Source: Bacteroidota bacterium
GTDB taxonomy: Bacteria > Bacteroidota > Bacteroidia > 2-12-FULL-35-15
Direction: 5' to 3'
DNA length: 64,000 nucleotides
Assembly: GCA_029237775.1 (NCBI GenBank)
Contig: JAQZBR010000002.1
Coordinates: forward strand, 248,001-312,000
Below are positions 4,998-12,348 of this stretch, in pieces. Under the pieces are notes generated by a model. That model saw only the letters and a list, made by a program, of their open reading frames with translations. It was not told the origin of the DNA and made no database searches. Position 1 is the stretch's first letter. Every line of letters begins with the position of its first letter. The position numbers and the translations under genes are program-made.

Positions 4998-5034
4998 AAA
5001 AAGAAATCCCCGGTCAAGCCGGGGATTTCTTTTT
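4998..5034 (+). terminator. bidirectional intrinsic terminator
   Basis: Sixteen-base arms AAAAAGAAATCCCCGG and CCGGGGATTTCTTTTT surround the loop TCAAG. Because the stem is flanked by A-run and T-run, it can serve the lipoprotein gene on the plus strand and the convergent metalloprotease gene on the minus strand (stop at 5076). Confidence 0.9.
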
Positions 5035-5075
5035 AATTTCTCTGACTATATTCAGCCGTCAACAACAGAGTAGTT

Positions 5076-7172
5076 TTACTTTTGGATGATACATTTTCTT
5101 GTGATCTCCTGTTTGCCATCGCTGAATTTGACAAAGTAAACACCGCTTTTCAATTGCCTTAGATCGAGCGACAATTTATTTTGTCCTTTATTGAATATGC
5201 TCATGCCTGACTCCTGAACATTTTGTCCGAGCACATTTGTGATAATGATATTCATTGATTTCGTTGTATTCAGATCAAATGAAACATTAAGTTCCTCAGA
5301 AGCGGGGTTAGGGTATAGGCTCAGTCCGGAAACATTTTCACTTAATTCTTCCAGACCGGTGGATGTATCAATATTTATATCATCAATGTAAATGTTATTA
5401 CCTCCTTTTGAAGTGAAAATGAACTTAAACCGGAAGTTAGCTGTGCAATACAAAGCGGGCACATTAACACTTACCTGGCGCCAGTCAAGCCCGGAAGCAG
5501 GAATAAATGGTGTGTTTTGAGGTGCTACCGTTTCAAGGGCTGAACCGATCAGACTGATTCTCGGTACGTAGGCTCCTGTACATGTTTTTGTAATGTACAC
5601 CTGGAGCTGATCCTGACTGATAGTATCTTTTCTTGCGAAAGCATATTTAAATGTAAAGCTGATGTTCGGACTTGCGGAAAGATCGATAACTGGGCTGTAT
5701 AATTCATCTTTTGTCATCATTGAATTGTTGAAGTTGTTCAGCATGACCGAATGCGATCCGGTAAAAGCTGCATCAGTGGACAATTGCCAGCTGTTAACTG
5801 TATCGAAACTGTTGGAGAACCATAAAGGCCCGTTAAGAGAGGATGTCGATTCAAAACTTTCGCTGAAAGGAAAGGCATTTCCGGTGTTTGGCAAAACCGA
5901 GATCATATTGTTTCTTGTGGTTTCGGCCGAATCGGTGCCGCTAAAAACTTTTAAAGTAACAGGATAACTTCCCGCTGTGCTGTATGTAACAACAGGTGAT
6001 GATACAGTCGAGCCGGAAGGGGATCCTCCGGGGAAACTCCATTGCAGCGAGCTTATATTTCCATTAAAAGAGGTGTTAGTGAATGTAATCTGGTTACCAC
6101 CTGTTTCACATACAACGGTTTTGTTGCTTGTGAAATCTGCCTGACAAAGCGGGCCTGGAATATCATAAGTCCCTGTAGCGATCAGATTTGCTGTTTGCCA
6201 AAGATTGTTCCTTCCGGCAATTGTATCATTCAAACAGGCATGCATTCTCGCTTTTTGTCCATAGGTGAACATCTTATTACAATAAGAGTAATCCATCGCA
6301 TTCTGAACATTATCAACTGCATTTCCACAAGAAGCCCCGTTCAGATTACAGCTCTGCCAGCCGATAGTAGGAGGGGTGTCCGCCACAAGATCATCGATGT
6401 TGCAATCTTTGGCTGTGTCGGCACAGGGATAAAAATAAAATCCCGGTACGTTGTTACCACCCCAGATATGTTGCAAATTAAGGTAGTGGCCACATTCATG
6501 TGCGAAGGCAACCGACTGTGTATAATTGGAGGTTCCGATGCTACCAACATAGTTATGCGAGATCACGATGCCATCCCATGAAGGAATGGAATCTGCATCT
6601 GCAGGCCATACACAATGACCGGCAAGCCCGGCTGCATTTGCAACTACATACACATTCAAGTACTTATCAGGTGGCCATTGAATGAGCGATTTTACAGAAT
6701 GGTCACCGATGGTAGTCAGTGGCGAAGAGATCCGGTTAATTCCACTTGTACAATTTCCATCAGGGTCGATGGTTGCTAAGCGAAATTCTATATCGCAATC
6801 GGCATGAATAGGCTTAAACGCAGCGACTATACTTGCTGTATCCGGACGTTGTTTCCTGAAGGTTTGATTTAAAATATTTATTCCGTCAAGGATCTGCGCA
6901 CGCGAAATGTTTTCATTCCCGAAATTATGGATCACATGAAAAACTAGTGGAATAGTATAAGTTGCGGTTGGCGTACGTTTGTTATAGAAATCTTCAACAT
7001 ACTTTTTAGTAAAGGCTTCAAGCTGAGCATCTCTTTTGATGACAGCTTCCGCGATCTTCGGATTAGCTTTCAGAGTGGCGATGCGCATTTCATCGGCACC
7101 GCAATGAAGAGGTTCCTGAGAAAAAGATCTGATAGAAAACAGAAGTAAGGAAGAGAGTAGGAGTGTTCTCAT
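5076..7172 (-). CDS. secreted M43-family zinc metalloprotease with PKD domain and T9SS sorting domain
   Basis: The 698-residue product is predicted to be exported by Sec and then T9SS. A signal peptide (1-19) is followed by a pappalysin-like M43 catalytic domain with the zinc motif HECGHYLNLQH (225-235; family HExxHxxGxxH, with Asn in the usual Gly position) and a Met-turn region NAMDYSYC (about 291-298). Several cysteines nearby suggest disulfides. A PKD domain follows (about 345-425; QWSFPGGSPSGS and VTYSTAGSYPVTLKV), then a jelly-roll/MAM-like module (about 435-600; ESFESTSSLNGPLWFSN) and a type A C-terminal sorting domain (about 620-698; LYPNPASEELNVSF, GVYFVKF). The Gly-to-Asn change does not touch zinc ligands. 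The substrate is unknown. Confidence 0.9.
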   Translation of the reverse strand: MRTLLLSSLLLFSIRSFSQEPLHCGADEMRIATLKANPKIAEAVIKRDAQLEAFTKKYVEDFYNKRTPTATYTIPLVFHVIHNFGNENISRAQILDGINILNQTFRKQRPDTASIVAAFKPIHADCDIEFRLATIDPDGNCTSGINRISSPLTTIGDHSVKSLIQWPPDKYLNVYVVANAAGLAGHCVWPADADSIPSWDGIVISHNYVGSIGTSNYTQSVAFAHECGHYLNLQHIWGGNNVPGFYFYPCADTAKDCNIDDLVADTPPTIGWQSCNLNGASCGNAVDNVQNAMDYSYCNKMFTYGQKARMHACLNDTIAGRNNLWQTANLIATGTYDIPGPLCQADFTSNKTVVCETGGNQITFTNTSFNGNISSLQWSFPGGSPSGSTVSSPVVTYSTAGSYPVTLKVFSGTDSAETTRNNMISVLPNTGNAFPFSESFESTSSLNGPLWFSNSFDTVNSWQLSTDAAFTGSHSVMLNNFNNSMMTKDELYSPVIDLSASPNISFTFKYAFARKDTISQDQLQVYITKTCTGAYVPRISLIGSALETVAPQNTPFIPASGLDWRQVSVNVPALYCTANFRFKFIFTSKGGNNIYIDDINIDTSTGLEELSENVSGLSLYPNPASEELNVSFDLNTTKSMNIIITNVLGQNVQESGMSIFNKGQNKLSLDLRQLKSGVYFVKFSDGKQEITRKCIIQK

Positions 7173-7293
7173 AAAAAACGAATTTCTATAAAAATAGAGA
7201 AATTAATATAAATGATTTGTATCTGCCGGCTTTCGTAAAACCAGAAAGAAGGTTTTTATTTTGAGCCCTTAATCAAAAGCTCAATTTTTCGCC

Positions 7294-7301
7294 TATATTT
7301 G
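7294..7301 (+). promoter_or_regulatory. pyrR promoter, -7 box
   Basis: TATATTTG matches TAnnTTTG and ends only 10 nt before the pyrR ATG at 7312, implying a leader of a few nucleotides. No clear -33 element was found. Confidence 0.6.
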
Positions 7302-7311
7302 TTCCCTAGAT

Positions 7312-7848
7312 ATGATGAAGCCCAGGATCATTTTAGACAGTAAGCATTTTGAAATTACCGTTACCCGGCTTTGTTATCAATTAATTGAAGTTCATAATGA
7401 TTTCTCCAATACGGTGATCATAGGCCTTCAGCCCCGCGGGATCTACCTCGCAAAACGTATCCAGACCAAACTTCAGGAAATTTTAAAGAAGAAAGACATC
7501 AAATGCGGAAGCCTTGATATTACTTTTTACCGCGATGATTTTCGTAAAAAGGAGCTTGTTCCTAACCGCACTGAGATCGATTTTATTATTGAAGATAAAA
7601 ATGTCATCATGGTAGATGATGTACTGTTTACCGGAAGGACGATCCGCGCAGGACTGGATGCAATGCTGGCTTTCGGCCGGCCGAACGATGTGGAGCTTTT
7701 AGTTCTGATCGACAGAAGATTGAGCAGACATTTACCAATACAGGCCAAATACGTAGGAAAAACAATCGATTCCATCATTTCTGAAAAAGTTGTGGTAGAG
7801 TGGAAGGAGACGGACAAGAGTGATAAAGTAACCCTGATCTCGAATTAG
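7312..7848 (+). CDS. pyrR: PyrR-type pyrimidine regulator / uracil phosphoribosyltransferase
   Basis: This is a 178-residue type I phosphoribosyltransferase of the PyrR family, which converts uracil and PRPP to UMP and in some bacteria regulates pyr genes through RNA. The PRPP-binding loop VIMVDDVLFTGRTIRAG (98-114) is intact, and the PyrR-like segments GLQPRGIYLAKRI (38-50) and FYRDDFR (72-78) are present. It is followed by pyrB in the same orientation, 227 bp downstream, so the pairing of regulator with target pathway is conserved. The 5' leader is very short, so attenuation of its own gene within a leader is unlikely; the pyrR-pyrB gap is the place to look for a binding site. A second ATG lies one codon downstream. 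Confidence 0.9.
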   Translation: MMKPRIILDSKHFEITVTRLCYQLIEVHNDFSNTVIIGLQPRGIYLAKRIQTKLQEILKKKDIKCGSLDITFYRDDFRKKELVPNRTEIDFIIEDKNVIMVDDVLFTGRTIRAGLDAMLAFGRPNDVELLVLIDRRLSRHLPIQAKYVGKTIDSIISEKVVVEWKETDKSDKVTLISN

Positions 7849-7857
7849 TGAAGGATT

Positions 7858-7960
7858 GAAATAGAGAAGAAAAGGAAATTAGAGAGTTGGAGAAGGGGTG
7901 AAATGGAGAAGGAAAGAAAAATAGAGAATTGGAGAAGTGGTGAAATAGAGAATTACAAAG
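7858..7960 (+). repeat. 42-bp purine-rich tandem repeat between pyrR and pyrB
   Basis: Two full 42-bp units (7858-7899 and 7900-7941) and a partial third (to about 7960) follow the pattern GAAATRGAGAAG...TTGGAGAAGNGGT. A 13-nt word, GAGAATTGGAGAA (7924-7936), has an exact complement at 8037-8049, 27 nt before the pyrB start. The two could pair and loop out about 100 nt in the pyrR-pyrB transcript. Confidence 0.65.
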
Positions 7961-8075
7961 ATTAAACAAAATTTAGAGTTTGGATTATTTAAGTGTGAAT
8001 TATTGAATGAGATTTATAGGTTACGAGTAACAGAAATTCTCCAATTCTCCAAATCTGCAACTCACCAAATGTAAT

Positions 8076-8999
8076 ATGACAGCGTTAAGCACGAAACACT
8101 TACTCGGAATAAAGGACCTTACACCTGACGACATCAATCTTATCCTTGATACTGCCGAAAGTTTTAAGGAAGTGATCAATCGCCCGATCAAAAAAGTTCC
8201 TTCGCTGCGCGACCTTACCATTGCCAATTTATTTTTTGAAAATTCCACCCGTACAAAGTTATCCTTCGAGCTTGCAGAAAAACGTTTAAGTGCCGATGTC
8301 ATAAATTTCGCAGCGTCCTCCTCTTCTGTAAAGAAGGGCGAAACGCTCATCGATACGGTAAATAATATTCTCGCCATGAAAGTGGACATGGTGGTGATGC
8401 GCCATCCGAATCCGGGAGCTGCAGTGTTCCTTTCAAAACATATTGATGCAAAGATCGTGAATGCCGGTGACGGTGCACATGAACATCCGACACAAGCTTT
8501 GCTGGATGCTTTTTCCATTAAACAAACCCTCGGTTCTGTCAAAGGAAAAAAGATCGCGATCATTGGTGACATCCTTCATTCACGTGTTGCGCTCTCAAAT
8601 ATTTTCTGCCTTCAGAAACTTGGCGCAGAAGTGATGGTTTGCGGCCCGACCACATTGATCCCTAAATACATTGAAAGTCTTGGAGTGAAAGTGGAGAACA
8701 ATCTCCGGAAAGCACTTGAATGGTGTGATGTAGCCAATATGCTGCGGATTCAGCTGGAGCGCCAGGATATAAAATTCTTTCCTTCATTACGTGAATACAC
8801 AATGCTTTTCGGACTCAACAAAGAGATCCTTGATTCACTTTCCAAAAAGATAGTGGTGATGCATCCCGGCCCGATCAATCGTGGAGTGGAAATCACCAGC
8901 GATGTGGCAGACAGCGATCAGAGCATTATCCTTGAACAGGTTGAGAATGGCGTGGCTGTAAGAATGGCTGTTTTGTTCCTCCTGGCAGGAAGGGGTTAA
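8076..8999 (+). CDS. pyrB: aspartate carbamoyltransferase catalytic subunit
   Basis: This enzyme catalyses the committed step of pyrimidine synthesis: carbamoyl phosphate plus L-aspartate gives N-carbamoyl-L-aspartate. The 307-residue length is normal. Carbamoyl-phosphate-binding motif STRTK (57-61), the SVKKGET loop lysines (about 84-90), RHPNPGA (109-115), HEHPTQ (135-140) and the C-terminal MHPGPINRGVEI motif are all present. It lies downstream of pyrR; pyrC is about 23 kb away on the other strand, so the pathway is scattered. No pyrI (regulatory subunit) is adjacent. Confidence 0.97.
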   Translation: MTALSTKHLLGIKDLTPDDINLILDTAESFKEVINRPIKKVPSLRDLTIANLFFENSTRTKLSFELAEKRLSADVINFAASSSSVKKGETLIDTVNNILAMKVDMVVMRHPNPGAAVFLSKHIDAKIVNAGDGAHEHPTQALLDAFSIKQTLGSVKGKKIAIIGDILHSRVALSNIFCLQKLGAEVMVCGPTTLIPKYIESLGVKVENNLRKALEWCDVANMLRIQLERQDIKFFPSLREYTMLFGLNKEILDSLSKKIVVMHPGPINRGVEITSDVADSDQSIILEQVENGVAVRMAVLFLLAGRG

Positions 9000-9463
9000 T
9001 TTTTTTTAACACTCAGGCAAGGAGGCCACTAAGTGCTGTGTTCGAAATCAGACCTCTCCGCTGCGGTCGAGATGACAGACAACCCGGAAATTCTATCGCA
9101 AAGCAATAATCTGTGAAAATTCGTTTAATCTGTGGTTAAAACATGAGTGACAACCCACAATACCATCGCGAAGCGATAAATCATAACAAACACAGCTATC
9201 CATTTTAATCATAAAAATCATAACGATCCGCGTTCCTGCCAAACGGTACTTTGGGTTTCAATAATTCAAGTGTTCGAATTAGATCTCTCTGCTACTGTCG
9301 AGATGACAATAAAATCCAATCGCGAAGAAATAATCTGTGAAAATCTGTGATACCTGTAGTGATTCTTTTTATTGGCGCTTTTCCCCTCAATGCCTAAAAA
9401 TCCCCTCAAATCCCTATTGCTTTCCGAAGCATTTTTTTTATATTTGTTCAAACATTTTAGGTT
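9000..9463 (+). repeat. 464-bp intergenic mosaic of dispersed repeats plus promoter of the STAS gene
   Basis: No gene is supported. Two copies of a roughly 38-bp unit beginning TGTTCGAA and ending GTCGAGATGACA lie at 9039-9078 and 9271-9308. CACAGATT-type units (read as AATCTGTGAAAAT) lie at 9094-9141 and 9319-9358, with ATCGCGAAGCGAT at 9165-9177. A minus-strand copy of the CGCGGATTTTTATGATTTTT-type unit is at about 9210-9236. The final 50 bp hold the next gene's promoter. Confidence 0.7.
9417..9446 (+). promoter_or_regulatory. promoter of STAS-domain gene
   Basis: TTG (9417-9419), a 19-nt spacer and TATATTTG (9439-9446) match the Bacteroidota -33/-7 promoter. The box ends 17 nt before the ATG. 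Confidence 0.7.
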
Positions 9464-9811
9464 ATGAGTTTCCAGATAGAAAAGACAGACAAGTACACAG
9501 TTATAAAATTGCAGGCAGAAAAACTGGACAGTAATTTAGCCCCTGCATTAAAATCAGAATTGGTGCTGTTAAATACTGATGGCGTAAAAAGTATCGTGAT
9601 CGACCTATCTCAGACACGTTACTGTGATTCGTCAGGGCTTAGCGCGATCCTTGTAGCTAACCGCCTTTGCAAAAACAGCAATGGAACATTTGTACTTACA
9701 GGCCTACAGGAGCCTGTTAAAAAGCTTATTGCAATTTCTCAATTAGATACGATCTTAAATATTACCTCTACCTTAGCGGAAGCCTCAGAACTCTTCCACG
9801 TCAAGGCCTAA
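9464..9811 (+). CDS. STAS-domain protein, anti-sigma factor antagonist family
   Basis: This 115-residue protein is a single STAS domain of the SpoIIAA/RsbV type. The phosphorylatable serine region reads YCDSSGLSAIL (about 53-63), where the first Ser of DSSG is the usual kinase target. Such proteins are switched by a kinase and a SpoIIE-type phosphatase; a TPR-SpoIIE phosphatase is encoded at 2054-4018, but the two genes are not adjacent. No HPK- or HATPase-type anti-sigma kinase was seen in the window. Bacteroidota commonly carry orphan STAS proteins of this kind. The next gene starts 32 bp downstream and may be cotranscribed. Confidence 0.85.
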   Translation: MSFQIEKTDKYTVIKLQAEKLDSNLAPALKSELVLLNTDGVKSIVIDLSQTRYCDSSGLSAILVANRLCKNSNGTFVLTGLQEPVKKLIAISQLDTILNITSTLAEASELFHVKA

Positions 9812-9843
9812 ATCTCAAAACCACTAACTACTAAAATCTGACT

Positions 9844-10596
9844 ATGAAAAAAACTCTACTCTCGTTATTTACTGCCGCTCTTTTGGGCGGATCTGCTTTT
9901 GCACAGTGTACTCCAAATGTTTCATGTATTCCTTCAGGCCAGACCTATGGTATCTGTCCTGACAGCGCAACGGGCATGGCAATAGGAACCGTAGGTACCG
10001 CTTACACTCAGGTAATGAGCATGAAAGTGCCTGCTGACGGAACCGATTTCGGTTATCCGGGGGTGCCTATTACAAATATTACAATCACAAGCGTGGACAG
10101 CCTTGCACCGGGATTATCATATGTATGTTCTCCTTCAGGATGTGTATTCCCTGGTAACTCACAAGGTTGTATCCTTATTTCAGGAACACCGACAACACCA
10201 TGGAACCATCAGGTGATCGTGAATGCGACTGCTTCTGCTACTTTTGGCGGTTTTCCGGTTAGCATTCCTCAGGCAAACAAACAATACCGCAGCATTGTGC
10301 TTGCTGTTGCAGGAATTGAATCTATGGACCTGACAAAATTTGAAGTTAGCCAGAACAGTCCAAACCCATTCAGCTCTAAAACAGAGATCAATTTTACATC
10401 TCCGACTCCAAACGAAGTGGAATTAAAAGTATTCAACATGCTTGGAGCAGTAGTGTTTTCTAAATCGATCAAAGCTGACAAGGGTTTAAATGCTTATGAA
10501 TTAGATGCTACTTCATTTTCTCCGGGCATTTATGTGTATTCAGTTAAGAATGGTGACAAAACAGTTACTAAGCGCATGATCGTTTCAGCAAAATAA
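9844..10596 (+). CDS. secreted protein with T9SS sorting domain (paralogue of 11608-12348)
   Basis: The product has 250 residues. A signal peptide (1-20, ending FAQ) is followed by a Cys-rich N-terminal module (CTPNVSCIPSGQTYGICPDS), a beta-rich domain with paired cysteines (YVCSPSGCVFPGNSQGCI) and a type A C-terminal sorting domain from about residue 165 (FEVSQNSPNPFSSKTEINF; GIYVYSVKNG; KRMIVSAK). It closely resembles the protein at 11608-12348: shared PDGTDFG-like segment, SVDSLAPGL, FPGNS, ISGTP. No catalytic motif is visible; an immunoglobulin-like or adhesion/structural surface role is possible. Its stop codon overlaps the rnz start by one base (TAATG), and its only visible terminator lies inside rnz. 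Confidence 0.8.
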   Translation: MKKTLLSLFTAALLGGSAFAQCTPNVSCIPSGQTYGICPDSATGMAIGTVGTAYTQVMSMKVPADGTDFGYPGVPITNITITSVDSLAPGLSYVCSPSGCVFPGNSQGCILISGTPTTPWNHQVIVNATASATFGGFPVSIPQANKQYRSIVLAVAGIESMDLTKFEVSQNSPNPFSSKTEINFTSPTPNEVELKVFNMLGAVVFSKSIKADKGLNAYELDATSFSPGIYVYSVKNGDKTVTKRMIVSAK

Positions 10597-11525
10597 TGCA
10601 GAATTTTGAATTAATGATTCTTGGTTGCAGCAGTGCAACTCCAACTTCTACAAGAAATCCGACCGCTCAGCTACTCAACATAGCTGAGCGGTTTTTTTTA
10701 ATTGACTGTGGTGAAGGCACTCAGATGCAGCTTCGCAAGTTTCATGTAAAGTTTCAAAAGATCAATCACATCCTGATCAGCCACCTGCATGGCGATCATT
10801 ATCTCGGGCTAATGGGACTGATCTCCAGCATGCATCTTCTTGGCAGGACGAATGACCTTCATGTGTATTGTCCGGCCGAGCTGCAGGAGATATTAGAGGT
10901 TCAGTTCAAGCATTCCCAAACACGCCTCAATTACACTATCGTTTATCATCATCACACTTATGAAAACAATGTCCTGCTTTTCGAAGATGAAAAAGTGGAA
11001 GTGAGAGGAATTGCTTTGAACCATAGAATCCCGTGCTGTGGTTTTATTTTCAGGGAAAAGCCTTTGCCTGGCAATATTTCGAAGGAAATGATCGTGAAAT
11101 ATAAGCTCACTGTTGAAGAGATAGTTTATCTGAAACAGGGTTCCGATCTTTCGTTGGCAGATGGAACGGTAGTGCCTAATAAAGACCTTATTACCAATAA
11201 AACCTTTCCGAGGAGCTATGCATTCTGCTCAGACACTATTTATGATGAAGGTATCATTCCATATATTAAAGATGTAGACCTTTTATATCATGAGGCAACT
11301 TTTATGAATGCAATGCTCCCGCGTGCCATCCAAACGCATCATACAACTGCCCTCCAAGCCGGCATTATCGCGCAAAAGGCAAATGCCAAAAAGCTGATCA
11401 TCGGACATTATTCCGCACGCTATAAAGATATTGAGCCACTTGTTGATGAGGCGCGACAAACTTTCGAAAACACATTCCCTGCAATTGAAGGTGAGGTGAC
11501 TACAGTTTCTCCGGTTTTAATTTAG
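10596..11525 (+). CDS. rnz: ribonuclease Z
   Basis: This is the metallo-beta-lactamase-fold endonuclease that trims tRNA 3' ends. The 309-residue length fits the short RNase Z form. It begins MILGCSSATPTSTRNPTAQ; the zinc motif SHLHGDHYLGL (62-72), the RIPCCGF segment, the FCSDT/YDEG loop and a late HHTTALQAG motif are present. The ATG at 10596 shares its A with the stop codon of the upstream T9SS cargo gene, suggesting translational coupling. Codons 23-35 contain a perfect intrinsic terminator (see 10662-10699), so expression may depend on ribosomes translating through this segment. No separate rnz promoter was found. Confidence 0.95.
   Translation: MQNFELMILGCSSATPTSTRNPTAQLLNIAERFFLIDCGEGTQMQLRKFHVKFQKINHILISHLHGDHYLGLMGLISSMHLLGRTNDLHVYCPAELQEILEVQFKHSQTRLNYTIVYHHHTYENNVLLFEDEKVEVRGIALNHRIPCCGFIFREKPLPGNISKEMIVKYKLTVEEIVYLKQGSDLSLADGTVVPNKDLITNKTFPRSYAFCSDTIYDEGIIPYIKDVDLLYHEATFMNAMLPRAIQTHHTTALQAGIIAQKANAKKLIIGHYSARYKDIEPLVDEARQTFENTFPAIEGEVTTVSPVLI
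10662..10699 (+). terminator. perfect intrinsic terminator inside the rnz coding sequence
   Basis: Twelve-base arms ACCGCTCAGCTA (10662-10673) and TAGCTGAGCGGT (10681-10692) enclose a 7-nt loop and are followed by an uninterrupted run of eight T (10692-10699). It sits 66 nt inside rnz, where it encodes part of the conserved AERFFLIDCGEG region. It is the only terminator-like element downstream of the secreted protein gene ending at 10596. Confidence 0.8.
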
Positions 11526-11607: not shown

Positions 11608-12348
11608 ATGAGGGTAATCATCTTTTTCTTGTTCGCATGTTTGTCAGTCAGTGCGTTGGCGCAGTGCTCTCCCGATCTATCCTGTCTTGATTCAGGTGCG
11701 ACAAGCGGGGTATGTCCGACCTCAGGTTTGGATACGGGTATTGTTGGAACTTTTTTTTCGCAGGTAGTGAGTGTAAAAGTCCCTGAGGATGGAACTGATT
11801 TCGGTCAGCCGCTCGCTACAATTATTTCCCTTGATATAGTTGGGGTAGATAGTCTCGCACCCGGGTTAACCTATAATTGTTCACCTGCAAATTGCAGTTT
11901 CCCGGGAAATTCAACAGGCTGTATCCGGATTTTTGGTACTCCCACTGTTCCATGGGATCATAAAATAGTTGTTCACGCGGAAGCGCACGTTAGGATTTTC
12001 TTTGTTAACTCAACCCAGGCACAAACTATTTCGAGTTTTTATTCCGTGGTGCGAGAAGTGGTTGGGATAGAAGCAAAGGAGGGTCAGACTATCAGCCTGG
12101 AACAAAACAGTCCAAACCCTTTTAATGCAAATACAGTTATAAAATACTATTCTTCAGTCAATTCAAATGATTTATTTGAAGTGTTTGATTTAATCGGAAA
12201 CAAAGTGTATGAAGAAAATTTAGGCACCAATCAGGGTGAAAATCTCCTGGTTCTCAAGGCTGATTATTTCAAACCGGGAGTTTATTTCTATTCACTTACG
12301 ATTGATGGAACCAGGTCGATCCGGAAAATGGTGGTGGCCGGTAATTAA
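11608..12348 (+). CDS. secreted protein with T9SS sorting domain (paralogue of 9844-10596)
   Basis: The product has 246 residues. The signal peptide (1-19, ending ALA) is followed by CSPDLSCLDSGATSGVCP, matching the N-terminal cysteine module of the paralogue upstream of rnz. Shared features include VPEDGTDFGQP, VGVDSLAPGL, FPGNSTGCI and FGTP, and a type A sorting domain from about residue 160 (LEQNSPNPFNANTVIKY; GVYFYSLTIDG; KMVVAGN). The pair probably arose by local duplication, with rnz now between them. Unlike its paralogue, this gene has its own promoter. The function is unknown. Confidence 0.8.
   Translation: MRVIIFFLFACLSVSALAQCSPDLSCLDSGATSGVCPTSGLDTGIVGTFFSQVVSVKVPEDGTDFGQPLATIISLDIVGVDSLAPGLTYNCSPANCSFPGNSTGCIRIFGTPTVPWDHKIVVHAEAHVRIFFVNSTQAQTISSFYSVVREVVGIEAKEGQTISLEQNSPNPFNANTVIKYYSSVNSNDLFEVFDLIGNKVYEENLGTNQGENLLVLKADYFKPGVYFYSLTIDGTRSIRKMVVAGN

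Follow-up and report, generated by a model that had tools for sequence, protein, structure and literature searches.

A gene whose stop codon runs into the start codon of the next one raises the question of where its transcript can end. This is the situation of a cargo gene in the window analysed here (the whole stretch of 64,000 nucleotides, whose numbering is used throughout), in which a STAS-domain gene, the cargo gene and rnz are consecutive on the + strand in this order (Table 1) and the cargo stop codon TAA (10594-10596) shares its last base with the rnz ATG (10596-10598). The preliminary description of this DNA had noted the TAATG overlap together with a perfect 12-bp stem, a 7-nt loop and eight T at rnz codons 23-35, and had claimed that the cargo gene has no other terminator; overlap and hairpin were confirmed from the sequence and its fold, and a + strand scan from 5,031 to 10,661, which found no other terminator, bore out the last point. 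In the present study we propose that an intrinsic terminator in rnz would end most transcripts of the cargo gene (and of the STAS gene) about 100 nt into rnz, with read-through yielding RNase Z at a low rnz to cargo ratio, a reading to which we give a probability of roughly 80%.

The hairpin in rnz

Table 1. Genes and hairpin elements at the rnz locus (window coordinates).
Feature	Position	Strand	Basis and remarks
STAS-domain gene (anti-sigma factor antagonist type)	9464-9811	+	TIGR00377 (E 1.3e-17), PF01740; first in the STAS-cargo-rnz set
Cargo gene, 250-aa protein with a signal-peptide-like start and a T9SS type A C-terminal sorting domain	9844-10596	+	TIGR04183 (E 1.8e-14), PF18962; ORF list
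TAATG, overlap of cargo stop and rnz start	10594-10598	+	Sequence
rnz, ribonuclease Z, 309 aa	10596-11525	+	NF000801 (E 1.1e-99)
Stem 5' arm ACCGCTCAGCTA, rnz codons 23-26	10662-10673	+	Sequence, fold; ACC, GCT and CAG almost fixed in the genus
7-nt loop CTCAACA	10674-10680	+	Fold; varies among relatives
Stem 3' arm TAGCTGAGCGGT, rnz codons 29-33	10681-10692	+	Sequence, fold, genus conservation, covariation
U-tract, 8 T with the first T paired, codons 33-35 (Phe-Phe-Leu)	10692-10699	+	Sequence; co-occurrence with the stem in relatives

The rnz product scores 333 bits against the NF000801 equivalog cut-off of 252, which identifies it as Ribonuclease Z, and a single copy of the gene was detected in the genome at E <= 1e-40. 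From codon 23 onwards rnz reads ACCGCTCAGCTA CTCAACA TAGCTGAGCGGT TTTTTTT, which gives 12 perfect pairs and a run of eight T when the last stem base is counted; an optional wobble pair between G10661 and T10693 may extend the stem further. The hairpin energy is -22.3 kcal/mol (z -7.6), equalled by none of 200 shuffles, and in the fold of a longer segment the hairpin persists, with no alternative structure displacing the stem. Likewise, none of 20,000 synonymous recodings drawn from local codon usage with the peptide held fixed was as stable as the hairpin (mean -4.7, minimum -19.9). The hairpin in rnz is not a product of chance.

Its d'Aubenton-Carafa-type score is 37.8, the next best among the scored terminators of the window being 28.2, and among the remaining candidates inside coding sequence, on both strands of the window, none folds below -15.4 kcal/mol. 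On the opposite strand no T-run lies beside the stem and the signal is therefore oriented along the operon, with a predicted RNA 3' end near 10697-10700. The stem pattern occurs once in the 4.08-Mb genome, and its 3' half has one exact match and otherwise only neighbours with one mismatch, by which a genome-wide repeat or uptake-type element was discarded. A second small hairpin, GTTGCAGCAGTGCAAC (window 10625-10640, 6 bp, codons 10-15), also has biased codons in the genus; it was not counted as a conserved element, because it is disrupted in other families and even in several members of the genus.

Conservation, covariation and the T-run

Within the genus, rnz was detected in 31 genomes (67-100% protein identity), and every one of them carries the hairpin at the identical place in the gene, allowing about one stem mismatch. 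The codons that spell it stand out among the 180 scored rnz codons: R32 (CGG) ranks first in codon bias, E31 (GAG) second and T23 (ACC) third, A24 and A30 (both GCT) tie for fifth, and the most biased 13-codon window of the gene begins at codon 23, with flanking codons unconstrained. Seven loci of the genus that have no cargo gene (L007, L008, L143, L139, L025, L029 and L137) have CGT, not CGG, as codon 32; the change costs the stem one pair and extends the T-run to nine. Cargo-bearing genus members mostly have CGG; this may reflect relaxed constraint or a single clade.

Beyond the genus, a strict pattern (ACCGCTC, 17 nt, GAGCGK and seven T, with one mismatch permitted) matched in 52 of 395 genomes of the class, belonging to 22 genera, and the reversed control pattern gave 0 matches; checked against the protein matches, every hit falls at the hairpin site in rnz. 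The order-level set contains this genus alone, so that the spread is across families. Among 217 rnz loci, namely a protein-based sample of 215 and two further loci found by the pattern only and excluded from the statistics, 73 have an aligned hairpin, and many of these relatives show 13 paired positions with a 5-nt loop. The median terminator score is 29.6 in the 73 hairpin relatives versus -66.3 in the 144 others.

The pairing itself was analysed in 50 distinct sequences picked by the T-run alone, counting 13 possible pairs. The cells are paired in 83.4% of cases, as compared with 27-39% (at most 38.6%) when the arms are slid against each other, and both-side covariation cells number 65 against 24.9 in shuffles. 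The check on paired-base conservation in relatives that the preliminary description had called for thus turned out in its favour, with changes on both sides in 9 of the 13 pairs; the outer seven pairs vary little because coding limits the possible change. Several of the exchanges alter the protein. GCC occurs with GGG in L164, L179 and L202 (Glu31 to Gly), AGTGCCC with GGGCATT in L217 (Thr to Ser, Glu to Gly, Arg to His) and CAAG with CTTG in L070 and L067 (Ala30 to Leu). Codon by codon, AGC at position 23 is accompanied only by CGT or CGC at position 32, AGT at position 23 by CAT (Thr to Ser, Arg to His), and GCC at codon 24 is paired with GGG at codon 31 (Glu to Gly) in four of five cases. 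Compensatory exchanges of this kind, made at the price of an amino acid, argue for selection on an RNA stem, and against both a DNA word bound by a protein and a side effect of the peptide. A conserved peptide that happens to spell an inverted repeat has nevertheless to be considered, since TAQxLNxxERFF is well conserved and able to spell the stem, and 50 loci have the T-run without the stem. The amino-acid replacements speak against it, as do the recoding result given above, the retention of the rare codons CGG, GAG and CTA in the genus and the occurrence of similar peptides without the stem in some relatives, and we regard such a by-product as extremely improbable.

Stem and T-run go together. 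At least six T out of seven are present in 71 of 74 loci with the stem and in 50 of 141 without it (Fisher p 6e-20; p 3e-12 with the genus removed), and Phe stands at residue 33 in 68 of the former and 17 of the latter. This tie points to a terminator, since a cut site or a binding site would need no T-run. The T-run might instead serve a programmed frameshift or transcriptional slippage, since the slippery heptamer U UUU UUA occurs here in the appropriate frame, in a run of 8-9 T; however, across the hairpin loci the +1 frame stops at once and the -1 frame stays open for a median of 2 codons, no alternative frame is conserved, and the hairpin lies upstream of the slip site, whereas the stimulators of ribosomal frameshifting sit downstream of it. 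We consider this use of the T-run close to negligible. The element combines a stable GC-rich hairpin, a same-strand T-run directly after the stem, a score in the range of intrinsic terminators and conserved pairing. Judged by these features, the rnz hairpin is a real, selected intrinsic terminator embedded in coding sequence; from it we infer termination itself, its efficiency and the expression of rnz by read-through. Many Bacteroidia appear to keep the coding of an enzyme and a stop signal in the same bases despite amino-acid change.

Dependence on the cargo gene and proposed mechanism

The presence of the hairpin follows the neighbour upstream. Of 79 loci with cargo closer than 40 nt to rnz, 55 have it; the figure is 14 of 76 where STAS lies upstream, and none of the 46 loci with other neighbours has it. 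These 14 STAS loci retain the hairpin with no cargo gene, and nine of them belong to this genus, whose other members mostly have cargo. A Pagel-type likelihood test, on a FastTree tree built without the trait codons, strongly favoured a gain and loss of the hairpin that depends on cargo (LRT 25.3, 2 df, p 3e-6); p was about 3e-5 both without the genus and when STAS and cargo contexts alone were kept. Such a test is sensitive to the FastTree topology, and one large event can distort its outcome. An independent-pairs test restricted to well-supported FastTree branches left the association unconfirmed (median p 0.5), the informative pairs being too few. Where the spacer between cargo and rnz is at least 40 nt, an intergenic terminator is present in five of seven loci, and two of these, AACCGCTC...GAGCGGTTTTTTT in L239 and AACCGCTC...GGGCGGTTTTTTTTT in L038, have outer stems that are nearly those embedded in rnz elsewhere. 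The hairpin is absent from 24 of the 79 close-cargo loci and from most STAS-rnz loci, and is therefore not obligatory. Most likely, on this comparative evidence, the hairpin serves as the 3' terminator for the cargo gene upstream. A conserved terminator-like structure that tracks the cargo gene is best read as the earlier claim has it, with the cargo mRNA ending inside rnz. Two loci of the same genus, L020 and L024, are without an intact cargo gene, and the hairpin is weakened in the former and kept in the latter. Their STAS-rnz gap is 69-77 nt, and in L024 it still ends like a cargo C-terminus (RMVLSGK and stop), so the cargo gene looks freshly lost.

A hairpin in this particular gene also invites a different interpretation, in which RNase Z regulates itself by cutting its own mRNA just after a 31-nt hairpin that mimics the acceptor/T-arm half of a tRNA. 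The tRNA minihelix has 7+5 bp and a 7-nt loop; the size of the hairpin (12 bp, 7-nt loop) matches it, and the host gene encodes the very enzyme that reads such helices. Nevertheless, the loop is no T-loop (UUCRANY), the equivalent of C56 being present in only 7 of 73 hairpin loci, while those of T55, R57 and A58 follow from the Leu-Asn codons, and many relatives depart from the minihelix with their 13 paired positions and 5-nt loop. A tRNA-like substrate, defined by a 7-nt T-loop on a 12-bp helix, was accordingly rejected. Moreover, RNase Z needs no T-run, yet stem and T-run go together, and the hairpin tracks the upstream cargo gene and has intergenic equivalents. Self-regulation of this kind seems to us very improbable.

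We thus return to termination of the cargo transcript as the preferred reading. RNA polymerase leaving the cargo gene would encounter the terminator ~100 nt into rnz and would usually stop there, and RNase Z would be made by the polymerases that read through, which would keep the ratio of rnz to cargo low. The terminator is written into rnz codons 23-35 because the TAATG overlap leaves no spacer, and the peptide TAQLLNIAERFFL is able to spell a GC-rich stem followed by Phe-Phe-Leu as TTTTTTTT. Some polymerases must pass it, since the genome has one detected copy of rnz. The stem begins 65 nt downstream of the cargo stop codon. In E. coli the terminator tR2 is fully efficient once it lies more than about 30 nt from a stop codon, terminators are efficient at distances above about 27-30 nt, and so are those placed within the first 100 bp of an ORF (PMC4824070); by analogy with these distances, the placement found here would suit full termination. 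Ribosomes that initiate on an ORF with such a terminator meet no stop codon on the terminated RNA (PMC4824070), so non-stop rescue is to be expected here too. This is the cost of a stop inside rnz, namely that ribosomes starting on the gene are given non-stop mRNAs, and a compensating benefit would be needed. If the reading is right, many truncated, non-stop rnz mRNAs are predicted, and, since terminated transcripts lack the rnz stop codon, tmRNA-tagged RNase Z fragments of 34 residues.

Ribosomes, known systems and gene neighbourhood

The terminator lies within a translated region, as it does in ribosome-gated attenuators, and a ribosome re-starting at TAATG close behind RNA polymerase might block the hairpin, in which case transcription of rnz would need translation of the cargo gene; a translation-gated attenuator was the inference of the preliminary description. 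The spacing lends this some support: it is that of TAATG (-1) or 0 in 47 of 55 close-cargo hairpin loci, and spacings of -4, -1 or 0 are commoner with the hairpin (48:7) than without (15:9; p 0.017), although outside the genus the association is not significant (p 0.13). Translational coupling is most efficient where spacing is tight (PMC12548453), and trailing ribosomes are able to prevent a terminator from folding (PMC5021804). On the other hand, the protection that a stop codon gives in E. coli is lost once it lies more than about 27-30 nt before the terminator (PMC4824070), against 65 nt here, and the strong form, gating by ribosomes newly started on rnz, would by analogy be disfavoured by the efficiency seen within the first 100 bp in E. 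coli (PMC4824070). Besides, STAS-rnz loci with gaps of 15-77 nt carry the hairpin too, no sensor, pause signal or competing antiterminator came to light in the sequence and its fold, and the hairpin forms in the longer-segment fold. No result here requires translation gating, and we consider it doubtful. Its broader version, a lineage-wide switch in which re-initiation at TAATG would carry polymerase past the terminator, RNase Z output would follow cargo translation and compensatory changes, both synonymous and amino-acid-replacing, would preserve the arrangement across many families of Bacteroidia, we judge unlikely. The link from secretion to tRNA maturation that the preliminary description had read into the locus found no support; it is a story added to the operon layout, and ordinary termination with partial read-through accounts for the data.

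A search of the open-access literature returned no paper describing a terminator in rnz, and an Rfam search gave no family above threshold. The best match there was RF04312 (trpB motif), in which a hairpin is followed by a terminator-like hairpin with a T-run; at 25.3 bits against a gathering score of 59, the rnz element is not a member. With ordinary intrinsic (Rho-independent) terminators the element shares a GC-rich stem and a T-run directly after it, and L239 and L038 have nearly the same stem in intergenic position, but the rnz element is contained entirely in conserved coding sequence, that of the gene which follows, so that no full-length rnz transcript can be made without passing it. 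The E. coli tR2 constructs likewise place a terminator in the first ~100 nt of an ORF after the stop codon of another gene, where it is efficient (PMC4824070); those are artificial, whereas the present case is natural and appears to be held by selection in a conserved gene of another phylum. Premature RNA 3' ends inside ORFs, some of them intrinsic (e.g. aceK int), have been mapped experimentally in E. coli and discussed mostly as sources of sRNAs or as premature termination of the same gene (PMC7815308), while the likely beneficiary of the stop inside rnz, as read here from sequence, is the upstream gene. Attenuators of the pyrBI type also have a terminator in a translated region, and here too its action could depend on ribosome distance; they use short leader peptides and pause sites, whereas rnz is a full enzyme gene, and neither a pause site or sensor nor an alternative structure came to light in its sequence and fold.

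Should the proposal hold, the stop signal of one gene is lodged in the conserved coding sequence of the unrelated gene downstream, which has a single copy and serves tRNA processing, and in several lineages the protein sequence has moved along with the RNA stem. Amino-acid conservation near a gene overlap can then partly be RNA conservation. Transcription-translation coupling is little known in the phylum, and the locus offers a clean natural case for measuring how polymerase passes an ORF-internal terminator.

As for the neighbourhood, pyrR and pyrB (window 7312-8999) lie upstream of the STAS gene, and in many relatives an ORF of 307-316 aa, the size of pyrB, is found immediately 5' of STAS-rnz, which suggests that pyrB-STAS-rnz is an old arrangement. 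A paralogue of the cargo gene with a matching N-terminal domain and a T9SS tail comes after rnz (window 11608-12348), so that rnz stands between two cargo copies; among the 214 loci with downstream sequence, this genome is the only one with such a paralogue.
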